Assembly (NCBI RefSeq): GCF_900069005.2
Contig: NZ_LN831279.1
Span: 1,621,453-1,685,452 of the forward strand
Source: Paenibacillus sp. GM2
Lineage (GTDB): Bacteria > Bacillota > Bacilli > Paenibacillales > Paenibacillaceae
Reading direction: 5' to 3'
Length of the DNA stretch: 64,000 bases
Notes under the pieces: model-generated
What the model saw: the letters and a program-made list of their open reading frames with translations, nothing else
What the model was told of the DNA's origin: nothing
Database searches by the model: none
Made by a program: the position numbers and the translations under genes
Shown here: positions 483 to 37,960 of the stretch, one piece after another
Position numbering within the stretch: the first letter of the stretch is position 1
How the letters are laid out: each line of letters begins with the position of its first letter

Positions 483-2879
483 ATGAATAGATCGATTTCC
501 AAAGCCGTAGTTATCGGTTCGGGCATTATGGGTTCCGGGATTGCGGCGCAGCTTGCCAATGCGGGAATTGCTTGTTCGCTGCTCGATATCGTGCCTGCGG
601 AAATGACGGAAATGGAGCAGGCCAAGGGATATTCACTTAAGGATTCGGCGGTAAGGAACCGCTTCGCTACAGCAGCTATAGCCGGTCTGCTCAAAAGAAA
701 GCCAGCGCCGCTATATGATGAAGCATTTGCGGCTCGCATCCGGCCCGGCAATCTGGAAGACCATTTGCATTGGATTCAGGATGCGGACTGGGTGATCGAG
801 GTCGTGGTAGAAAATCTGGCGGTGAAGCGGGACCTTCTCGCCAAGATGGAGCCGCATTGGAAGCCTGGCGTTCTGGTCAGCACCAATACATCAGGGATAT
901 CGATTGAGGCGATGAGTGAGGACAGATCCTTAGAGTTCCGTAAGCATTTCATGGGAACGCATTTTTTTAACCCTCCGCGGTATATGAAGCTGCTGGAGAT
1001 TATTCCCGGCCAGCACACAGAGCCTGCACATGTCGACCGGCTGCGCGAAGTTGCGGAGCGTGCTTTGGGCAAGACGGTGGTGATTGCCAAAGATACGCCT
1101 AATTTTATTGCCAACCGCATTGGCACGTACGGATTGCTGGTCACCCTGCGCGAGATGCTGCAGCGAGGATATACCGTTGAGGAGGTAGATGCTGTAACCG
1201 GTCCGGCCATGGGACGTCCGAAAAGCGCAACCTTTCGCACACTCGATTTGGTTGGCCTCGATACTTTCCTCCATGTTGCGGACAATGTGCGGGAGCATGT
1301 GCAGGATGAAAGCGAGATCGAGGTATTCACTGTGCCGGAGCCGCTTCAGCAGATGGTGAGGCAGGGCTGGCTTGGCGAGAAATCGGGTCAGGGCTTCTAT
1401 CGCAAGCTCAAAGAGCAGGGCAAGAGCCAGATTCTGGCTTTGAACCTGGAGGGCTTCACGTACGAGCCGCAGGTAAAGCCGTCCTCAGGTTCACTGCAAG
1501 CCGCAAAGGCCGCGAAAGGAAGCAAAGCGAAGCTAAAGGCGCTGCTCAGCGGAGGGGATCGTTATTCCGATCTGGCCTGGAATGTGTTGAAGCCTGTGCT
1601 GCTCTATTCCGCAGCCAAGCTCGGTGAGATCGCGGACAATATCCGCGAGATCGACGAAGCGATGAAATGGGGCTTCAATTGGGAGATGGGGCCGTTCGAG
1701 ACCTGGGATGCGATTGGCCTGGTTCCGTCTGTGAGAAGGATGGAAGCCGAGGGTCTGCAAATTCCGGGCTGGGTTAGCGAATGGATCGCAGCGGGCAACA
1801 CCTCATTTTATAAAAGAGTAGAAGGCCAGCTGTTCCATGTGCTGAGCGGAAAATACAAAGCGGTAGAACAGCCGCCGCAGATCATCTCGCTGCGTGATTT
1901 GAAGGAGCAGAAGCAAGTGCTTCGAAGCAACACTGGCGCAAGCTTGCTTGATCTGGGCGATGGCGTGGCCTGTCTGGAGTTCCATTCCCCGAACAATGCG
2001 ATCGGCGAGGATATTCTCAGCATGATTACGCAGAGCCAGGAAGAGGTCAGGAAGCGTGGTTATGCCGGATTGGTCATTGCCAATCAGGGGCGCAACTTTT
2101 GCGTCGGCGCTAATCTGATGCTTCTGCTGATGGAAGCGGAGGATGAGGAATGGGATGAGGTCGATGATATTATTGCGCTGTTCCAGAACACGATGTATCA
2201 ATTGAAATATTTTGAGAGGCCCGTCGTTGCTGCGCCGCACCGAATGACGCTTGGCGGGGGAGTTGAGGTTTGCCTGCCCGCCGATCAGGTGATCGCCGCG
2301 GCGGAGACATACTATGGCCTGGTCGAGGTTGGCGTTGGCCTGATTCCCGCCGGTGGCGGCTGCAAGGAGCTGACGCTGCGGGCGAGTATGCAGGCTTTAC
2401 CTGAGGTGGATCTGCAGCCGTATATCAATCGACTGTTCGAGACGATTGGCATGGCGAAGGTGTCAACCAGCGGACATGATGCGAAGCGTCTCGGTTATCT
2501 GAGAGCGAGCGACCGGGTGGTAGTCAACCCGGACTACGCGATTTATGAAGCGAAGCAGGCGGTGCTGCGCTTGGCCGGCTCCGGTTATGAGCCGATGCAG
2601 GAGAGTAAGCTGCGCGTTGTGGGCGCCGAAGGCAAAGCCGTACTGCAGCTTGGAGCCATCGGCATGAGGGAGAGCGGGTATATCAGCGATCATGATCTTC
2701 TGATCGCAAAGAAGCTGGCGCATGTGCTCTCTGGTGGAGATGTGCCCGCAGGTACCTGGGTCAGTGAGCGGTATATGCTCGACCTGGAGCGGGAAGCATT
2801 CCTGAGTCTGTGCGGTGAGGTAAAGACAAGGCAGCGCATGAAGCATATGCTGACGACAGGCAAACCGCTGCGGAATTAG
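483..2879 (+). CDS. fadN: 3-hydroxyacyl-CoA dehydrogenase / enoyl-CoA hydratase FadN
   Basis: Bifunctional beta-oxidation enzyme of 798 residues, close to the size of B. subtilis FadN. The N-terminal half is a 3-hydroxyacyl-CoA dehydrogenase: an NAD-binding Rossmann fold starting VVIGSGIMGSGIA (residues about 9-21), followed by the substrate-binding region with GTHFFNPPRYMKLLE and TPNFIANRIG. The C-terminal half (from about residue 480) is a crotonase-fold enoyl-CoA hydratase with FCVGANL and LGGGVEVCLPAD. It hydrates trans-2-enoyl-CoA and oxidises the 3-hydroxyacyl-CoA. The ATG follows a GGAGG about 10 bases upstream. The gene is 18 bp before fadA and surely co-transcribed with it. Confidence 0.95.
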   Translation: MNRSISKAVVIGSGIMGSGIAAQLANAGIACSLLDIVPAEMTEMEQAKGYSLKDSAVRNRFATAAIAGLLKRKPAPLYDEAFAARIRPGNLEDHLHWIQDADWVIEVVVENLAVKRDLLAKMEPHWKPGVLVSTNTSGISIEAMSEDRSLEFRKHFMGTHFFNPPRYMKLLEIIPGQHTEPAHVDRLREVAERALGKTVVIAKDTPNFIANRIGTYGLLVTLREMLQRGYTVEEVDAVTGPAMGRPKSATFRTLDLVGLDTFLHVADNVREHVQDESEIEVFTVPEPLQQMVRQGWLGEKSGQGFYRKLKEQGKSQILALNLEGFTYEPQVKPSSGSLQAAKAAKGSKAKLKALLSGGDRYSDLAWNVLKPVLLYSAAKLGEIADNIREIDEAMKWGFNWEMGPFETWDAIGLVPSVRRMEAEGLQIPGWVSEWIAAGNTSFYKRVEGQLFHVLSGKYKAVEQPPQIISLRDLKEQKQVLRSNTGASLLDLGDGVACLEFHSPNNAIGEDILSMITQSQEEVRKRGYAGLVIANQGRNFCVGANLMLLLMEAEDEEWDEVDDIIALFQNTMYQLKYFERPVVAAPHRMTLGGGVEVCLPADQVIAAAETYYGLVEVGVGLIPAGGGCKELTLRASMQALPEVDLQPYINRLFETIGMAKVSTSGHDAKRLGYLRASDRVVVNPDYAIYEAKQAVLRLAGSGYEPMQESKLRVVGAEGKAVLQLGAIGMRESGYISDHDLLIAKKLAHVLSGGDVPAGTWVSERYMLDLEREAFLSLCGEVKTRQRMKHMLTTGKPLRN

Positions 2880-2897
2880 CTGGGGAGGGAAAAGATC

Positions 2898-4079
<1,182 letters not shown>

Positions 4080-4095: not shown

Positions 4096-4330
4096 TAACG
4101 AGACAGGGCATCGCTAATTTGCTCAAAAACAGGTCTCCAAAATTCTAACGAAACGTGGTAACGCTATTCGGCCAAAAACAGGCCTCTAAAAATTCTAACG
4201 AAACGTGGTATCGCTATTTAGCGCAAATGGAGGCCTGAAGCTTGAATTTAGCTCAAATAACGATCTGTAGTTTCGTTAGATCTGAAAACGGGCTGTTTTG
4301 GCGGTAATAGCGATCTGTAGTTTCGTTAGA
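4096..4330. repeat. Dispersed ~50-bp repeat, forward copies then inverted copies (locus A)
   Basis: Forward copies begin at 4143 and 4193 (TCTAACGAAACGTGG followed by TA-CGCTATT) with a degenerate one near 4096. Inverted copies occupy 4255-4280 and 4306-4330 (AGCGATCTGTAGTTTCGTTA core). Spacing between copies in the same direction is 50-51 bp. The forward and inverted halves can pair over the shared core. The same arrangement recurs at 9957-10142 and, expanded, at 36897-37933. Confidence 0.85.
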
Positions 4331-31225: not shown

Positions 31226-31239
31226 AGAACATGTGTTCT
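31226..31239. promoter_or_regulatory. LexA (DinR)-like palindrome
   Basis: Perfect 14-bp palindrome AGAACATGTGTTCT with the GAAC-N4-GTTC core of the Firmicute SOS box (consensus CGAACnnnnGTTCG). It lies 81 bp upstream of the TerB-type gene. A -10-like TATGAT (31257-31262) would put the box over the -35 region, a position expected for repression. The outer base differs from the consensus on both sides. Confidence 0.6.
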
Positions 31240-31319
31240 AGCATCAATAAAAATGTTATGATCATATCAGAGAGTTTTGAGACGAGAATAAAAATGGGAT
31301 GAATGGTGATGGGAGTTCC

Positions 31320-32885
31320 ATGAATGCATATAACAAATCGCTGGACTTTGTAGAGATCGATATAAGTGAAGCACAAGAGCAGAGCGGCTCATTGCAGGAA
31401 ATGAGCATACCTGAGCGGAAGGATCGCCCTGTTCAAGGGTCCTCTCTGCCTATGCAAGGGCTTGCGAGAGAACGCAGATTTGTGAGGCAAGCCAGGGAAT
31501 GGGAGCGGCGGGAAGGAGAGCCGTCTCTGTATATTCCGTTTATGAGCTATTGGCCTACCTTCGAGCAGATGGATGAAGCACAGCAGAGCTGGTATTTTTA
31601 CTGGCGCAGCGAGTTGAGGCAGGGACGTTATCCGTTTACCGATCTATCCTATATTTTTGTCTATCTATATGAACTGATTCACGGTGTTGGCTGGGAGGAG
31701 CCGCAACAAGGCTATCATCAGCTTATGGCATTATGGAACGCTTACCAATCGATGTACCCGAAGCTGAGTAATTACATAGCGGAATGGGTTTGTGATTTTG
31801 CACTGCTGCATAAGCTGGACCTGCCCTTGATGGATATTATCATGCGATCCACTAGTGCGAAAGCCGGGGAGCTCTACGATCTGGAATTAAAAAGAATTCT
31901 GGAGAACGAGCCTTCCAGGCTGCGGTTGGAGCATATTTTGGCGTTCTCGGATTATGACCTGCAGCGCAGTAAGTTTTACGTAACCGGAGGTCGGGCGCTT
32001 ATGGAGGAATATATGCCGAAGGTGGTGGCGCTGGTCGATTCTTATTTGCGGAAAACCAATGGCAAAAATCTGATCGATACGTTTTATAAAGGAAATGGAA
32101 AGACGGTCGAGCGGTATTTGTTCCGCAGTGCGGTATATGATGCCGAGTTATATGGGCGTACGCTGCCGCTGCGTATTTTCCAATTGCGGAAATGCCCGCC
32201 GCTCCGTTATTACATCACTCAACTGATCCGCTGTACGGAAAATAAATTGCGCGAGCTTCAACACTTCAAAGGGCGGCTGCGTGGTGTTTCTCTAATGAAG
32301 GAGACCCAGATGCTGGTCGAGCGCTTTCTGGAGAAGGAATATACAGAAGCGATCAAGCCTGCCGGACCTGTGATCTCTATAGATCCCGAACGGCTGGCCA
32401 CGCTGCAGAAGGATAGTGAAGAAGTGCGGAGCCTGCTGACCGTCGAGGATGAACGGATGGTGGAGGATGCGGCGCAGGATATGGAGCTTGTAACGGAAGC
32501 AGGGCCGGAGCTGCAGGAACAGGTAGAGGCACAGGTAGAGATGCGGGATGGGGATGGCCCATCCTATACCGATTCGGATCAGGAGATCGTCCGGGATACT
32601 TCCGGCCTGGATGAAGATTGGCTGCTGTTTGCAGGACAGCTGGGACAGGCTCATCTCGAAGCTTTATTTGCGCTGCAAGAGACAAGCGGCCGACTGTACG
32701 AAATTGCCGAGAAATACGGGACCATGCCTGCGCTGCTGCTCGATGAAATCAACGAGCTTGCGATGGAGACGATCGGAGATTTGTTGGTGGATGGCGAATC
32801 AATCGCTGAAGATTATATAGATTATTTTGCACGGCTGAGGCGTGTTCAAAAAAGGTCGGTTTTCAGCACCGGAAAGGTTGAATGA
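31320..32885 (+). CDS. TerB-N/TerB-C domain-type protein
   Basis: 521 residues from ATG 31320 (GGGAG upstream; ATG 31299 is possible). After a charged N-terminal 35 residues, the region about 40-240 (EWERREGEPSLYIPFMSY, QQSWYFYWRSELRQGRYP, LSYIFVYLYELIHGVGW) matches the TerB-N domain. A helical, acidic middle leads to a C-terminal helical domain (about 430-510: EDWLLFAGQLGQAHLEALF ... LLLDEINELAMETIGD) like TerB-C. Such proteins belong to Ter-linked systems proposed to act in stress response and DNA processing. The gene leads the cassette with the ATPase and helicase, 170 bp upstream of the ATPase. Confidence 0.8.
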   Translation: MNAYNKSLDFVEIDISEAQEQSGSLQEMSIPERKDRPVQGSSLPMQGLARERRFVRQAREWERREGEPSLYIPFMSYWPTFEQMDEAQQSWYFYWRSELRQGRYPFTDLSYIFVYLYELIHGVGWEEPQQGYHQLMALWNAYQSMYPKLSNYIAEWVCDFALLHKLDLPLMDIIMRSTSAKAGELYDLELKRILENEPSRLRLEHILAFSDYDLQRSKFYVTGGRALMEEYMPKVVALVDSYLRKTNGKNLIDTFYKGNGKTVERYLFRSAVYDAELYGRTLPLRIFQLRKCPPLRYYITQLIRCTENKLRELQHFKGRLRGVSLMKETQMLVERFLEKEYTEAIKPAGPVISIDPERLATLQKDSEEVRSLLTVEDERMVEDAAQDMELVTEAGPELQEQVEAQVEMRDGDGPSYTDSDQEIVRDTSGLDEDWLLFAGQLGQAHLEALFALQETSGRLYEIAEKYGTMPALLLDEINELAMETIGDLLVDGESIAEDYIDYFARLRRVQKRSVFSTGKVE

Positions 32886-32894
32886 AGTCAGGGA

Positions 32895-33020
32895 CTGAGG
32901 AGCGGAGCGTACATAGTTTGTACAAGAGCACCGGAAGGCCCGGCTGAATTTAAGATTCGATGCTGCGTAACTTCTTGATTCGCTTCGTGATCATAAGCAG
33001 ACTTTTTGAACTACCTCGAT
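32895..33020 (+). other. Intergenic element with a GTACA/TGTAC palindrome and CTTTTTGAAC motif
   Basis: Between the TerB-type gene and the ATPase gene lies GTACA-tagtt-TGTAC (32909-32923), a CACCGG/CCGG stretch, and then GCAGACTTTTTGAACTACC (32997-33015). Similar CTTTTTGAAC-ACC stretches stand upstream of cysJ (about 57445-57466) and, more degenerate, before cysI (about 59450-59500). It may be a shared leader element; the function is unknown. Confidence 0.45.
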
Positions 33021-33055
33021 TAGGAATTAGGACGAAATGGACGAGGTGAAGTGGA

Positions 33056-34399
33056 ATGATGGAACCAAACATAGCCGATATCAAAATCCCGAGGCGGCTG
33101 ACAACCGCGCTGATAAATTCATTCACTGCGGGTGTGGTGCCTAGAATCGGCTTAGAGCATATCGCGGTGGGGCGGAAGGCTGAAGTCGAGGCTATTTTGC
33201 GCGACATGGACAATATCAGTGCTGGCGGAGCGGCCATGCGATTGATTACCGGGCGCTATGGCAGCGGCAAGAGCTTCCTGCTGCAAACGATCCGCAATTA
33301 TGCGCTCGACCGCGATTTCGTGACGGCTGACGCCGATCTGTCGCCCGAACGCCGTCTGGTCGGTACAAAAGGACAAGGCCTGGCCACCTACCGTGAGCTG
33401 ATGACGCATCTGTCAACACGTACTCGGCCGGACGGTGGGGCGCTGGAGGCCGTCCTGCAGAAGTGGATTACGACGATACAGCAGGAGGCCATGAAGGACG
33501 AAGGCTTGCGTCCCGGTGACCCGGCATTAACCGTGGCCGTCGAGCAGCGGATTTTCACGGTTGCGGCGCAAATGCAAAATCTGGTGCATGGCTTTGATTT
33601 CGCCCGCGTATTGGCGGCTTATTGGAACGGCCATAAGCTTGGAGAAGACGGGCAGAAGCAGGCAGCGCTGCGTTGGCTGCGCGGCGAATTCCCGACCAGG
33701 ACCGAAGCGCGAAAAGAGCTGGATGTGAGCGTCATTATCGATGATGACAACTGGTATGACTATATCAAGCTGTGGTCGGAATTTGTAGCGGCGATCGGAT
33801 ATCAAGGTCTGCTGCTATTTATCGACGAAGGCGTTAATTTATATAAAATTTCCAACAGCATCGCTCGCACAAGCAATTATGAAAAGCTGTTGACTATGTT
33901 TAACGACACGATGCAGGGCAAAACGGAGCATCTCGGCATTTTTCTGGGCGGTACGCCGCAGTTTGTCGAGGATGAACGGCGCGGTCTGTTCAGCTATGAA
34001 GCGCTGCGCTCCCGCCTGGTGGAAGGCCGCTTTGCGAGGGCGGGCTACCGCAACTATACCGGCCCGATCCTTAAACTGGAGATGCTCTCGCATGAAGAGA
34101 TTTTGATTTTGCTGCAGAAGCTGCGGCAGATCCATGGTTTGCATTTTGCTTATACCCCAATTTTAACAGATGCGGATCTCATTCAATTTATGGAGATGGC
34201 TGTCGGCAGAATGGGGGCGGACGAGCTGCTAACCCCACGTGAGGTAGTACGTGATTTTATGGATTTACTGCATACCTTGCATCAGAATCCGGAGGTTTCG
34301 TTCAGTCAGCTGCTGGGTGAGCGAAGGGCGGAACATACGACGGAGGCAGGGGAGTCACAGGACGAATTGGATGATTTTCTGGCGGAGTTCGAATTATGA
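33056..34399 (+). CDS. ATP-binding protein, DUF2791/BrxD-like
   Basis: 447-residue AAA-type P-loop ATPase. Walker A is ITGRYGSGKSFLLQTI (about 65-80), Walker B GLLLFIDEGVNL (about 248-260), and there is an extended C-terminal part ending in acidic DDFLAEFEL. The organisation matches DUF2791, called BrxD when found in type 2 BREX systems. GAGGTG precedes the ATG by 7 bases. The stop overlaps the helicase start (ATGA, 34396), so ATPase and helicase are made together and probably form a complex. No BREX methylase or PglZ is near. Confidence 0.87.
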   Translation: MMEPNIADIKIPRRLTTALINSFTAGVVPRIGLEHIAVGRKAEVEAILRDMDNISAGGAAMRLITGRYGSGKSFLLQTIRNYALDRDFVTADADLSPERRLVGTKGQGLATYRELMTHLSTRTRPDGGALEAVLQKWITTIQQEAMKDEGLRPGDPALTVAVEQRIFTVAAQMQNLVHGFDFARVLAAYWNGHKLGEDGQKQAALRWLRGEFPTRTEARKELDVSVIIDDDNWYDYIKLWSEFVAAIGYQGLLLFIDEGVNLYKISNSIARTSNYEKLLTMFNDTMQGKTEHLGIFLGGTPQFVEDERRGLFSYEALRSRLVEGRFARAGYRNYTGPILKLEMLSHEEILILLQKLRQIHGLHFAYTPILTDADLIQFMEMAVGRMGADELLTPREVVRDFMDLLHTLHQNPEVSFSQLLGERRAEHTTEAGESQDELDDFLAEFEL

Positions 34400-36612
34400 G
34401 CGGCGAAGCCAATCAGCTGTTTTATCGCTTGGCGCCATTTATTCAGGAATTTATTTACCGAAAAAGATGGGAGACGCTTCGTCCGGCCCAGGTTGAGGCG
34501 CTTAAAATTTGCATGGATACGCCGAACCATATGCTGATTGCCGCGGGAACGGCGTCGGGGAAGACGGAAGCGGCTTTTTTTCCGGCTTTGACCGAACTGC
34601 ATGAGCGTCCGTCCGCGTCCGTAGGTATTTTGTATGTCGGCCCCTTGAAGGCGCTCATTAATGACCAGTACGAACGGATCAAAGAGCTGCTACGGGATGG
34701 CAATATTCCCGCCTGGCATTGGCACGGCGATGTCTCGCAGATAGAGAAGAGCAAGCTGATGCGTAATCCGTCCGGTGTGCTGCAGATCACGCCGGAATCG
34801 CTGGAAGGGCTGCTGATGAATCGGCCCAATGCAATCCCCGCCTTGTTCCATGATCTCAGATATATCATTATCGACGAGGTTCATGCCTTTATGGGCGTGG
34901 ATCGGGGCATCCAGGTGCTGAGCCAGATCGCGCGGATCGAGAGAATGGCAAGCTGCTCGCCAAGACGTGTCGGCTTATCCGCAACGCTAAGTGACTATGA
35001 AGCAGCGAAGGCCTGGCTTGGTGCGGGCAGCAATCAGCCGGTTGACGCAGTCTCCGTGCCTGGCGGACGCAAGCTGCGGCTGCGGGTGGAGCATTTCTCG
35101 TTCCCGGATGCACGGGACGAGGAGCAGGCCGAGCATTTGCAAAATGCCCGCAAGGCCTATTACAGCTTCATCTACGACAGTACCCATTTGAAAAAAACGT
35201 TAGTATTCACCAATAGCCGTTCCGATGCGGAATTGACGACGCTGGAGCTGCGCAGGCTTGCCGCTCACCGCCATCAGCCCGATGTGTTCTACGTGCATCA
35301 CGGCAGCATCTCCGCCATGCTGCGCGAGGAAGCGGAGGCGGCGCTGAAGGATAAGCCCGGCCCGGCGGTTGCCGCCGCAACCGTGACGCTGGAGCTGGGG
35401 ATCGACCTGGGAGAGCTGGAACGAGTCGTACAGCTGGGCGCTCCTTATAGCGCCTCCAGCTTTGTGCAGCGGCTGGGCCGATCCGGGAGGCGCGGAGACG
35501 CGGCCTCCGAGATGCTGTTCGTCTGTCCGGAGGAGGAGGACGAAGATGCGATGCTGCCGGCGCGTATGCCTTGGATGCTGCTGCGGGCGATTGCAGTTAT
35601 CGAGCTTTATGTCCGCGACCGCTGGGTGGAGCCGCTGGATATTCGGCAAATGCCGATCGGTCTTCTCTACCACCAGACGATGAGTATATTGAAGAGTAAA
35701 GGGGAAGCGACGCCGGTCGAACTGGCCTCCGATGTGCTGTCGCTGCCATCCTTTAGCCGGATCTCCCCGGATACGTACAAAGTGTTCCTGAATTACTTGC
35801 TGCAGACGGATCATATTCAGTGGACCGAGCAGCAGACTTTGATTATCGGCCTTACGGGTGAGAAGATCGTGAACAACTTCCGTTTCTACGCCGTGTTCAA
35901 GGATGACGAGGAACATGCGGTATATAACGGAACAGAGGAAATTGGCTCGATTACGACCGTGCCGCCGCCTGGATACTGCTTCTCACTGGCAGGCAAGCTG
36001 TGGAAGGTCACCGAGGTGGACACCAAGCATAAGGCGGTGTACGTCAAAGAGGCCTTAGGCAAAGTGGATACCTTGTGGCTAGGGGCCGGCGGGGATATTC
36101 ATACTTTGGTTCTAAGGAAAATGCGTGAGGTGCTGGCGGATAATACGATCTATCCGTATCTTTCGCCGCAAGCCGTCAACCGGCTTGAGCGGGCTCGCCG
36201 TCTGGCGAAGGAGAGCGGACTGCTGAGATCCGCCGTCATTCCGGCTGGCGGCGACTCGTTATTTATTTTGCCATGGGTTGGCAGCAAGCAGTTCCGCACG
36301 CTGGAGCGGCTGCTCAAAAATAACCTCTCCCAGCGCCTGTCGCTCCGTTCCATCGTGCCGATGGAGCCGTATTATTTCGTGGTGGCCGGCCAAGCGGACA
36401 GTCAGGCGCTATTGGAGCAGATCCTGCTCGAATGTGGTTCTTGCGCAGATCCATCCATGTTGCTCGGGCCTGATGAAGCGCCATATTTAGGCAAGTATGA
36501 CGAGTTTGTCGCACCGGAGCTGGTGCGTCAGGCTTTTGCTGTCGACGGACTGGATGTTGAAGGGCTAAGAGCTGGACTTGAGCTTCACCACCATCAGGGA
36601 GGCTGGAAGTGA
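34396..36612 (+). CDS. DEAD/DEAH-box helicase, Lhr/BrxHI-like
   Basis: 738-residue superfamily 2 helicase. Motif I is IAAGTASGKTEAAFFP (about 48-63), motif II YIIIDEVHAFMG, motif III GLSATLSD, motif IV-like LVFTNSRSDAE, motif V TLELGIDLGELERVV and motif VI SSFVQRLGRSGRRGD. The C-terminal 300 residues resemble the accessory region of short Lhr-type helicases such as BrxHI. It is coupled to the DUF2791 ATPase by a 4-base overlap. Likely it unwinds or translocates on nucleic acid under control of the two partners; substrate and direction are unknown. Confidence 0.88.
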   Translation: MSGEANQLFYRLAPFIQEFIYRKRWETLRPAQVEALKICMDTPNHMLIAAGTASGKTEAAFFPALTELHERPSASVGILYVGPLKALINDQYERIKELLRDGNIPAWHWHGDVSQIEKSKLMRNPSGVLQITPESLEGLLMNRPNAIPALFHDLRYIIIDEVHAFMGVDRGIQVLSQIARIERMASCSPRRVGLSATLSDYEAAKAWLGAGSNQPVDAVSVPGGRKLRLRVEHFSFPDARDEEQAEHLQNARKAYYSFIYDSTHLKKTLVFTNSRSDAELTTLELRRLAAHRHQPDVFYVHHGSISAMLREEAEAALKDKPGPAVAAATVTLELGIDLGELERVVQLGAPYSASSFVQRLGRSGRRGDAASEMLFVCPEEEDEDAMLPARMPWMLLRAIAVIELYVRDRWVEPLDIRQMPIGLLYHQTMSILKSKGEATPVELASDVLSLPSFSRISPDTYKVFLNYLLQTDHIQWTEQQTLIIGLTGEKIVNNFRFYAVFKDDEEHAVYNGTEEIGSITTVPPPGYCFSLAGKLWKVTEVDTKHKAVYVKEALGKVDTLWLGAGGDIHTLVLRKMREVLADNTIYPYLSPQAVNRLERARRLAKESGLLRSAVIPAGGDSLFILPWVGSKQFRTLERLLKNNLSQRLSLRSIVPMEPYYFVVAGQADSQALLEQILLECGSCADPSMLLGPDEAPYLGKYDEFVAPELVRQAFAVDGLDVEGLRAGLELHHHQGGWK

Positions 36613-36635
36613 AATTCATAATAAGGGGATAGGAT

Positions 36636-36767
36636 ATGAAACTGGAAAGACTGATTTCCATGGCCTACATGCTCCTGAATCATGAGATTTTATCAGCTTC
36701 GGCACTCGCGGAGAAGTATAATGTATCCCAGCGGACCATTTACCGAGATATTGTCCAGTTTGGTTAG
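36636..36767 (+). pseudogene. HTH_11 (YafY/WYL-type) regulator, truncated after the HTH
   Basis: ATG 36636 follows AAGGGGATAGG, 23 bp after the helicase stop. It encodes 43 residues: LERLISMAYMLLNHEILSAS, then ALAEKYNVSQRTIYRDI, a complete HTH of the YafY/WYL regulator class. At that point the sequence switches into the repeat array (from about 36755) and stops. Intact relatives continue for about 250 residues with a ligand-sensing WYL domain. The missing part is not found in the window. Confidence 0.8.
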
Positions 36768-37960
36768 GACCCGATAAATCTGCGGTTTCGCGACCGACTC
36801 TGCTATTTCTGCGTTGCTGATTGAAACCAATATACGAAACCTGACTTAACTCTATTGCTCGGACAGTTCCGTAAGCGCAGGTGTGTAACCTATTATTCTA
36901 ACGAAACTGGGACACGCTATTTGGGCAAAATTGAGACGTAAAAGAATCTAACGAAACTACAGAACGCTATTTGGCTAAAATAAGGCCAAAACATAGCAAT
37001 TTGGGCCGAATAACGATACCCAGTTTCGTTAGAATTCGAAGCAAGGTAAATATAGCCCAATAGCGATACAGAGTTTCGTTAGAGTGTGAAGCAGGGGCGA
37101 TATAGCCAAATAGCGATCTCCGGTTACGCTAGTTAGGATGTATAGCGGGATAAATTTAGCAAATAGTTACTTTAGAGTGTGACGCAAGGCTAATATAGCT
37201 AAATAACGATACCTAGTTTCGTTAGAGTGGTAGCAAGGCAAGTATAGTCCAGTTTCGTTAGGACCCGATGAAGCTGCGGTTTCGCGACCGACTCTGCTAT
37301 TTCTGCGTTGCTGATTGAAACCAATATACGAAACCTGATTCCTCCCTAGGTTCTAACTCTATTGCTCGGACAGTTCCGTAAGCGCAGGTGTGTAACCTAT
37401 TGCGCTAACGAAACTGGGACACGTTATTTGGGCAAAATTGAGATGTAAAAAAATCTAACGAAACTACAGATCGCTATTTGGCCAAAACAAGGCCCAAACA
37501 TAGCAATTTGGGCCGAATAACGATACACAGTTTCGTTAGAATTCGAAGCAAGGTAAATATGGCCGAATAGCGATACAGAGTTTCGTTAGAGTGTGAAGCA
37601 GGGGCGATATAGTCCAATAGGGGTTCCCGATTCCGCTAGTTAGGTTGCGAAGCAGTGCTAATATAGCCCAATAGCGATACAGAGTTTCGTTAGAGTGTGA
37701 AGCAGGGGCGATATAGTCGAATAGGGGTTCCCGGTTCCGCTAGTTAGGTTGCGAAACAGTGCTAGTATAGCCGAATAGCGATACACAGTTTCATTAGAGT
37801 CTGGAGCAGGGGCGATATAGTCCAATAGGAGTCTCCGGTTACATTAGTTAGGATGTACAGCAGGGGCAAATTTAGCAATTTGTTACGTTAGAGTGTGACG
37901 CAAGGCTAAATAACAATACCTGGTTTCGTTAGAGCATGTAGCAGCGCTAATTAGCCCTGT
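36755..37960. repeat. Large array of the dispersed 50-bp repeat with a 494-bp tandem duplication (locus C)
   Basis: Two forward copies (36897, 36947) are followed by inverted ones (37009, 37059 and degenerate ones near 37109, 37160, 37201). The block starting CCAGTTTGGTTAGGACCCGA at 36755 recurs at 37249 (offset 494), again with two forward copies (about 37403, 37453) and then inverted copies at 37516, 37566, 37670, 37775 and 37910, alternating with variants whose core is GGTTCCCGATTCCGCTAG. A weak third version of the block's left end is seen near 37980-38050. Nothing coding was found in the 1.45 kb between the helicase and the AraC gene except the HTH stump. Confidence 0.88.

Follow-up and report, generated by a model that had tools for sequence, protein, structure and literature searches.

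The probable Shango operon of Paenibacillus sp. GM2 and a candidate LexA operator in front of it

What system is encoded by three co-directional genes of Paenibacillus sp. GM2 that join a TerB-type protein to a BrxD-like ATPase and a BrxHI-like helicase? The genes lie within a 64,000-nucleotide (nt) stretch of DNA, the window (assembly GCF_900069005.2, contig NZ_LN831279.1, positions 1,621,453-1,685,452, forward strand), where the list of open reading frames (ORFs) gives three open genes on the plus strand between window positions 31299 and 36612. A first-pass annotation had described them as a defence or DNA-repair machine of unknown activity containing the accessory pair of a type 2 BREX (bacteriophage exclusion) system. 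The defence part of that description stands, whereas the machine proves to have a name and an experimental record: the trio is very probably a new member of a known system, the Shango anti-phage operon sngA-sngB-sngC.

The first gene, sngA (31299-32885), encodes a 528-residue protein with TerB_N and TerB_C domains (Pfam, 4.8e-38 and 2.1e-14, both above cut-off), so that the TerB assignment, whose failure had been named as one of the possible refutations, passes the profile search. The separate family PF05099 (TerB), given for Shango in a review, has no match in SngA at E ≤ 1. The second gene, sngB (33056-34399), encodes a BrxD-like AAA+ (ATPases associated with diverse cellular activities) protein of 447 residues (Pfam BrxC_BrxD, 7.8e-164), and sngC (34396-36612) a 738-residue Lhr/BrxHI-like superfamily 2 (SF2) helicase (Pfam DEAD 2.6e-26, Helicase_C 2.7e-14). 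An ATGA overlap joins the sngB and sngC frames. SngB carries the motifs GRYGSGKS at residue 66 and LLLFIDE at 252, and SngC has AGTASGKT at 50, DEVH at 160, SAT at 195 and QRLGRSGRR at 358. Gene arrangement, domain calls and the Walker and helicase motifs are thus as first described. The sngB DNA occurs once in the genome; a weak second BrxC_BrxD match (27.9 bits) falls within a 1707-residue open frame elsewhere (L002, G000:C13:265022-265183).

The identification as Shango follows from the fit of the named PADLOC profiles together with the conserved gene order. The SngA profile matches at 1.8e-107 (profile positions 73-526 of 528), SngB at 3.5e-206 (4-439 of 439) and SngC at 3.6e-242 (5-714 of 720), covering 86-99% of profile length. 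BrxD and BrxHI come second, which bears out the kinship noted earlier, but they trail by 528 bits (155.6 against 683.5 for SngB) and 392 bits (412.7 against 804.2 for SngC), so that the two genes are sngB and sngC and not displaced BREX accessories. Similarly, SngB does not reach the NCBIfam BrxD model (157.9 bits, cut-off 350), nor SngC model NF007284 (121.9 bits, cut-off 1496), which we take to be that of full-length Lhr. The first-pass annotation had also declared the BREX core genes absent; this holds for PglZ, whose best match in the genome scores 22.4 bits, below the 25-bit cut-off, while PglX and PglW were not searched. A machine of unknown activity is ruled out by the fit of the Shango profiles, and the reading of BrxD/BrxHI-like pairs outside BREX as something new is corrected accordingly.

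Shango was reportedly first described by Millman et al. in 2022. The trio shows the features of the system, with a TerB-type SngA, a BrxD-like SngB and a DEAD/DEAH-type SngC encoded side by side on the same strand, TerB protein first, then ATPase, then helicase. In the published account, Shango acts against phages through three genes whose products have TerB, helicase and ATPase domains, and transfer of the Pseudomonas aeruginosa PA14 copy into strain PAO1 reduced the plating of several phages (PMC10250203). Sng is the gene prefix of the system where it is named (PMC12278908, PMC10221251), and one of these sources reports a Shango system from S. faviae SCSIO W1865, on plasmid 4, its SngB at 2522-3829 (PMC10221251). 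In a tblastn search, the window's SngB matches NZ_CP116427.1 (S. faviae) at 2528-3826 with 44.6% identity and 98% coverage; from species and coordinates, we infer that this record and the published plasmid are the same. Literature searches combining TerB, DUF2791 and helicase found no paper, and those for Shango in Paenibacillus found nothing relevant; for Shango and LexA together, a single paper on S. aureus was listed.

The three genes travel as a unit. A scan with an SngB alignment over one genome per species (84,980 species) gave at least 573 confirmed relatives, and the best 80 loci, ranging from Paenibacillus and Desulfosporosinus to metagenome-assembled genomes (MAGs) of Jettenia, Bacteroidales and Methanosarcina, were analysed. 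In 72 of these, some of them fragments (L229, L230), sngA-sngB-sngC is recognisable in order on one strand, and 68 of the 72 retain the 4-bp sngB/sngC overlap; this conservation is far beyond chance. The remaining eight (L181, L198, L218, L220, L222, L223, L225 and L247) are one or two genes short in the ORF pick, although each has a tblastn match to SngB, and part of the shortfall comes from contig ends or from mistakes in that pick. Between the window and one sister genome, G011, the trio is under purifying selection, with ratios of non-synonymous to synonymous substitution (dN/dS) of 0.165 for SngA, 0.071 for SngB and 0.050 for SngC. SngA is extended in some relatives: 13 named proteins exceed 800 residues, with about 280-870 residues ahead of the matched part (for example L239:4397-6877, L240:4307-7984 and L223:3527-7828), and the extension in L239 contains a TM2 membrane domain, while those in L240 and L223 have no Pfam family. 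These extensions suggest that SngA is the component that varies in sensing or location. Two loci carry a tandem pair of SngC-like helicase genes 3' of sngB (L231:6351-10827, L242:9305-13871).

Shango is common in several genera of Paenibacillaceae and scattered elsewhere. Within the window's genus, SngB is found in 32 of 40 genomes, SngA in 33 and SngC (E below 1e-120) in 32, compared with five for strong PglZ of BREX (E below 1e-50). Each of the 32 genomes has a single SngB locus, not counting a 20-bit second match in G011 and taking the pieces in G031 as one broken copy. One genome, G028, has SngA only, at a contig end, and seven have neither SngA nor SngB. An even draw across the family finds SngB in 92 of 197 genomes (two weak) and 10 of 19 genera; across the class, at E ≤ 1e-80, it is found in 42 of 299, of which 27 belong to the window's family.

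FastTree phylogenies of SngB plus SngC (50 genomes), set against RpoB (60 genomes), divide the copies of the genus into two groups. Lineage 1 comprises 22 of the genomes in the tree together with G023, whose sngC is split, and it agrees with RpoB (Mantel r = 0.65, 0 of 2000 permutations). Lineage 2, to which the window belongs, has eight genomes in the tree and in addition G031, whose sngB is broken; its internal distances correlate with RpoB (r = 0.89, 3 of 2000), yet the group cuts across the RpoB tree. The window's SngB and SngC are 89.2% identical to those of G210, from another genus, and 76.4% to those of G003, from the same genus, whereas RpoB gives 93.9% and 95.8%, a conflict produced by horizontal transfer. 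None of the 40 genomes has both lineages (p = 8.9e-5 when counted by genome and 0.009 when five events are assumed).

A gene for a pentapeptide-repeat protein lies 3' of sngC at 19 of 41 loci, all of them among the 23 of lineage 1, with gaps of -53 to 887 nt and sometimes another gene between (L071:6404-7051 and 18 other loci; L167:9333-9977). It may be a lineage-1 partner gene. For the window's own operon we reject it as a fourth component, as it is absent from the window and present at those 19 loci only. In G016, it stands without sngABC, and a lineage-2 copy lies elsewhere in that genome; the 55-nt stretch 5' of the gene is 87% identical to that 5' of sngA in G025 and retains a LexA-like box, as if sngABC had dropped out.

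How might the operon be controlled? The consensus of the Gram-positive LexA operator is GAACRNRYGTTC, and a candidate LexA (SOS) operator that fits it, GAACATGTGTTC, lies at 31227-31238, 60 nt 5' of sngA. An exact fit precedes 7 of 78 named sngA genes and 4 of the 836 other genes found there (p = 6e-6), and with one mismatch allowed a box precedes 30 of 76 and 17 of 830, respectively. Admitting [GT] at the ninth base, a relaxation chosen after lineage 1 had been seen, gives 17 of 76 against 5 of 830 at the named loci, and 28 of 31 further loci of the genus, which have no control set of their own. In lineage 1, where the box is CGAACAARYTTTCG-like, CGAAC-N4-TTTCG is found at 23 of 23 loci; variation is limited to 3 of its 14 positions, whereas the flanks hold just 4 invariant positions in 60. 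As many of these sequences are related, the box p-values overstate independence, and the separate cases are taken to be the window group, the macerans group, lineage 1 and several single species. The box was not found at six loci of other genera or at the 16 distant loci scanned. The window's own genome has the exact pattern at 24 places, one of them between lexA (LexA_DNA_bind, 8.2e-28) and a divergent LysM gene, which we take to be yneA-like. Scans for promoters and terminators gave no clear excess over shuffles (9 versus 6.9 and 7 versus 7.0). From these sequence patterns we predict, and consider it somewhat probable, that the Paenibacillus Shango operon is LexA-repressed and induced by DNA damage.

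The Shango label itself is settled, and what makes the locus worth following up is the high and mutually exclusive occurrence of its lineages and the candidate operator. What is unusual here is how common Shango is in one bacterial group, and a switch that looks like control by the DNA-damage response. A LexA-like operator would link Shango to DNA damage and allow a simple induction test, and two mutually exclusive lineages within one genus offer natural pairs of gain, loss and replacement in which cost and protection could be compared. Put together, these features might describe a member of the SOS regulon: LexA-repressed, confined to a single locus, near-universal, more prone to replacement by a foreign version than to duplication, and acting as a damage-switched guard against replicating foreign DNA and perhaps in repair. 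We regard this composite as doubtful though possible; if true, Shango would be a damage-triggered system and not a constantly armed one.

Several observations weigh against our own reading. Across the genome, the strict LexA pattern occurs no more often than its control (28 matches versus 29), and it stands 5' of only 7 of the 78 named sngA genes, and the lineage-1 block was picked by a pattern that fixes its outer letters, so that what counts there is its presence at all 23 loci. With regard to occurrence, the SngC model matches all 40 genomes of the genus since other helicases match it, and PglZ is above cut-off in 15 of the 40, of which only five are below 1e-50. The supports of the trees were not examined, and the overlap test, made in the 40 genomes, used lineages that had first been defined from the tree itself.

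The surroundings of the operon differ with phylogenetic distance. Neighbours of at least 120 residues were scanned with PADLOC at 1e-20. At 17 loci outside Paenibacillaceae, the 117 neighbours match 63 defence families, a count of families and not of matching proteins; among the 25 families listed are a type I methyltransferase, GajB, a type IV restriction enzyme and a reverse-transcriptase system. At 14 of the 63 Paenibacillaceae loci (17 listed, with L221, L224 and L227 left out), the 144 neighbours match four: WYL (two models), mad3 and PDC-S07. Beside the window's trio, two of ten genes matched, which we read as generic similarity to an ABC (ATP-binding cassette) ATPase and a methyltransferase. 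Defence genes are thus rare among the sampled Paenibacillaceae neighbours, whereas many families surround the more distant Shango loci. At E ≤ 1e-60, and judged by SngB alone, an SngB-like protein is found in 678 of 72,556 plasmid records, 539 of them typed as conjugative, mainly from Klebsiella and Salmonella, with Paenibacillus plasmids accounting for 2 of the 15 matches listed. Within Paenibacillus, plasmid records with Shango or an SngB-like gene are L187 (P. cellulositrophicus, 897 kb) and H2 (P. peoriae). A search of 50,697 phage records at a threshold of E ≤ 1e-10 found no SngB.

The range noted earlier runs past sngC to 36767 and takes in a 43-codon stub (36636-36767), which is a neighbour outside the Shango system. 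By eye, the stub reads as the start of a helix-turn-helix regulator, and a sister locus (L047) has in its place an open 311-residue frame with a near-identical start. A repeat of 50/54 nt with AGTTTCGTTAGA (one mismatch allowed) gives 19 matches in the window against 0.21 expected, at 36749-37950 (a 1.2-kb cluster directly 3' of sngC), 4144-4330, 10131 and 14806.

If the operon is so widespread in this group, is it a defence system at all? The strongest alternative to a Shango anti-phage operon is that the Paenibacillaceae operon is a quasi-core genome guard, a DNA-damage-response or repair module for which phage defence is secondary. The frequency of SngB relative to strong PglZ (32 versus 5 of 40), the single locus per genome, the agreement of lineage 1 with RpoB, the LexA-like boxes, the scarcity of defence genes among sampled neighbours and the strong purifying selection against one sister are all consistent with this. 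However, 7 of 40 genomes of the genus lack both SngA and SngB, the family draw finds SngB in only 92 of 197, decayed copies exist, and the tree sets lineage 2 at odds with RpoB even though its own distances correlate. SOS control is also possible for defence systems. The first-pass annotation had set its own reading against a trio core-conserved in every Paenibacillus at one locus without a link to defence genes. Half of that picture is found, with 32 of 40 genomes and few defence neighbours in the sampled Paenibacillaceae; the other half is not, as Shango is missing from some genomes of the genus and its site differs between clades. On this evidence, we consider the genome guard unlikely.

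It is more unlikely still that this particular copy is impaired, the operon going out of use after a repeat separated sngA from sngB. In the sister G011, the two genes overlap by 4 bp, whereas here a 194-bp insertion of a dispersed repeat (32832-33025), absent from the sister, abolishes the overlap and gives SngA a different C-terminal end, beginning at about residue 512; in G031, the related copy is broken. Nevertheless, all three frames are open, dN/dS is low, a scan of the insert showed no terminator-like site, and residues 517-528 of the altered tail have a predicted local distance difference test score (pLDDT) under 50 in the AlphaFold model, so that the tail is probably unstructured. The first-pass expectation of a functional copy is plausible from the sequence. 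The segment 32886-33020 has at least 65 matches in its own genome, counting itself, from a scoring of 40 of 175 candidates, and its copies are in places tandem units about 184 bp apart. Finally, a BrxD/BrxHI pair left over from type 2 BREX with an unrelated TerB gene adjoining, as the BrxC_BrxD family and the BrxHI match of SngC (6.8e-124) might suggest, is highly improbable given the 528- and 392-bit profile margins, the missed BrxD cut-off, the lack of a proper PglZ in the genome and a TerB gene that accompanies the pair at 72 of the 80 loci, even in MAGs of archaea and Bacteroidales.

How could Shango work? A 2026 review gives its mechanism as unknown (PMC12926258). The AlphaFold model of SngA (pLDDT 83.4, predicted template modelling score 0.62) is mainly helical over residues 52-380, followed by a low-confidence region and then a possible winged helix from about residue 439. 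Foldseek finds nothing for this model at E ≤ 0.001, and a second look gave middling scores; by sequence, neither SngA nor SngB has a solved relative (best E 0.36 and 0.17). SngC (pLDDT 83.8) aligns by sequence with solved SF2 helicases, Lhr first. Among the listed profile matches of SngABC, no separate nuclease domain is seen; where families such as Cas3 and Hef match, it is with their helicase parts. On this ground and from the Lhr fold match of SngC, we reject a nuclease in either SngA or SngC.

BrxD is described as an origin recognition complex (ORC)-Cdc6 AAA+ ATPase that may load BrxHI (PMC12839542), in a main text where the words Shango and TerB do not occur. Because of the homology to this BrxD-BrxHI dyad, we propose that SngB, as an ORC/Cdc6-type ATPase, would load or activate SngC on foreign or damaged DNA, that SngC would act on the DNA as an Lhr-type helicase, and that SngA, with its possible winged-helix TerB_C end, may serve as an adaptor for target recognition or for joining the parts. 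As a whole this mechanism is possible, if less than probable. Since no separate nuclease domain is seen, Shango is more likely to remodel or block phage DNA, or to pass it to host nucleases, than to cut it directly.

These features place the trio among several known systems. The closest fold match of SngC is Lhr from Mycobacterium smegmatis (PDB 5v9x; E 7.7e-29, template modelling score 0.69 by query), although the two are only 20% identical and sngC shares its operon with genes for an ATPase and a TerB protein. SngC has been grouped with BrxHI, DruE and DpdJ in a possible defence clade (PMC12278908). Hachiman (HamAB), a helicase-based defence that monitors DNA integrity (PMC12278908), may serve as a model for DNA sensing by SngC. 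HamA is a nuclease, whereas the profile scans of SngABC showed no separate nuclease domain. With the type 2 BREX dyad the trio shares a linked pair of homologous AAA+ ATPase and SF2 helicase (PMC12839542), but it has SngA in front, no proper PglZ, and BrxD and BrxHI scores far below those of SngB and SngC. The nearest counterpart is the Shango of P. aeruginosa PA14 and Escherichia coli, with a TerB-type protein, an ATPase and a DEAD/DEAH helicase, in PA14 in the same gene order (PMC10250203). Compared with Shango elsewhere, the window's genus carries the system commonly, outside defence islands at the sampled loci, and with a LexA-like box 5' of sngA.
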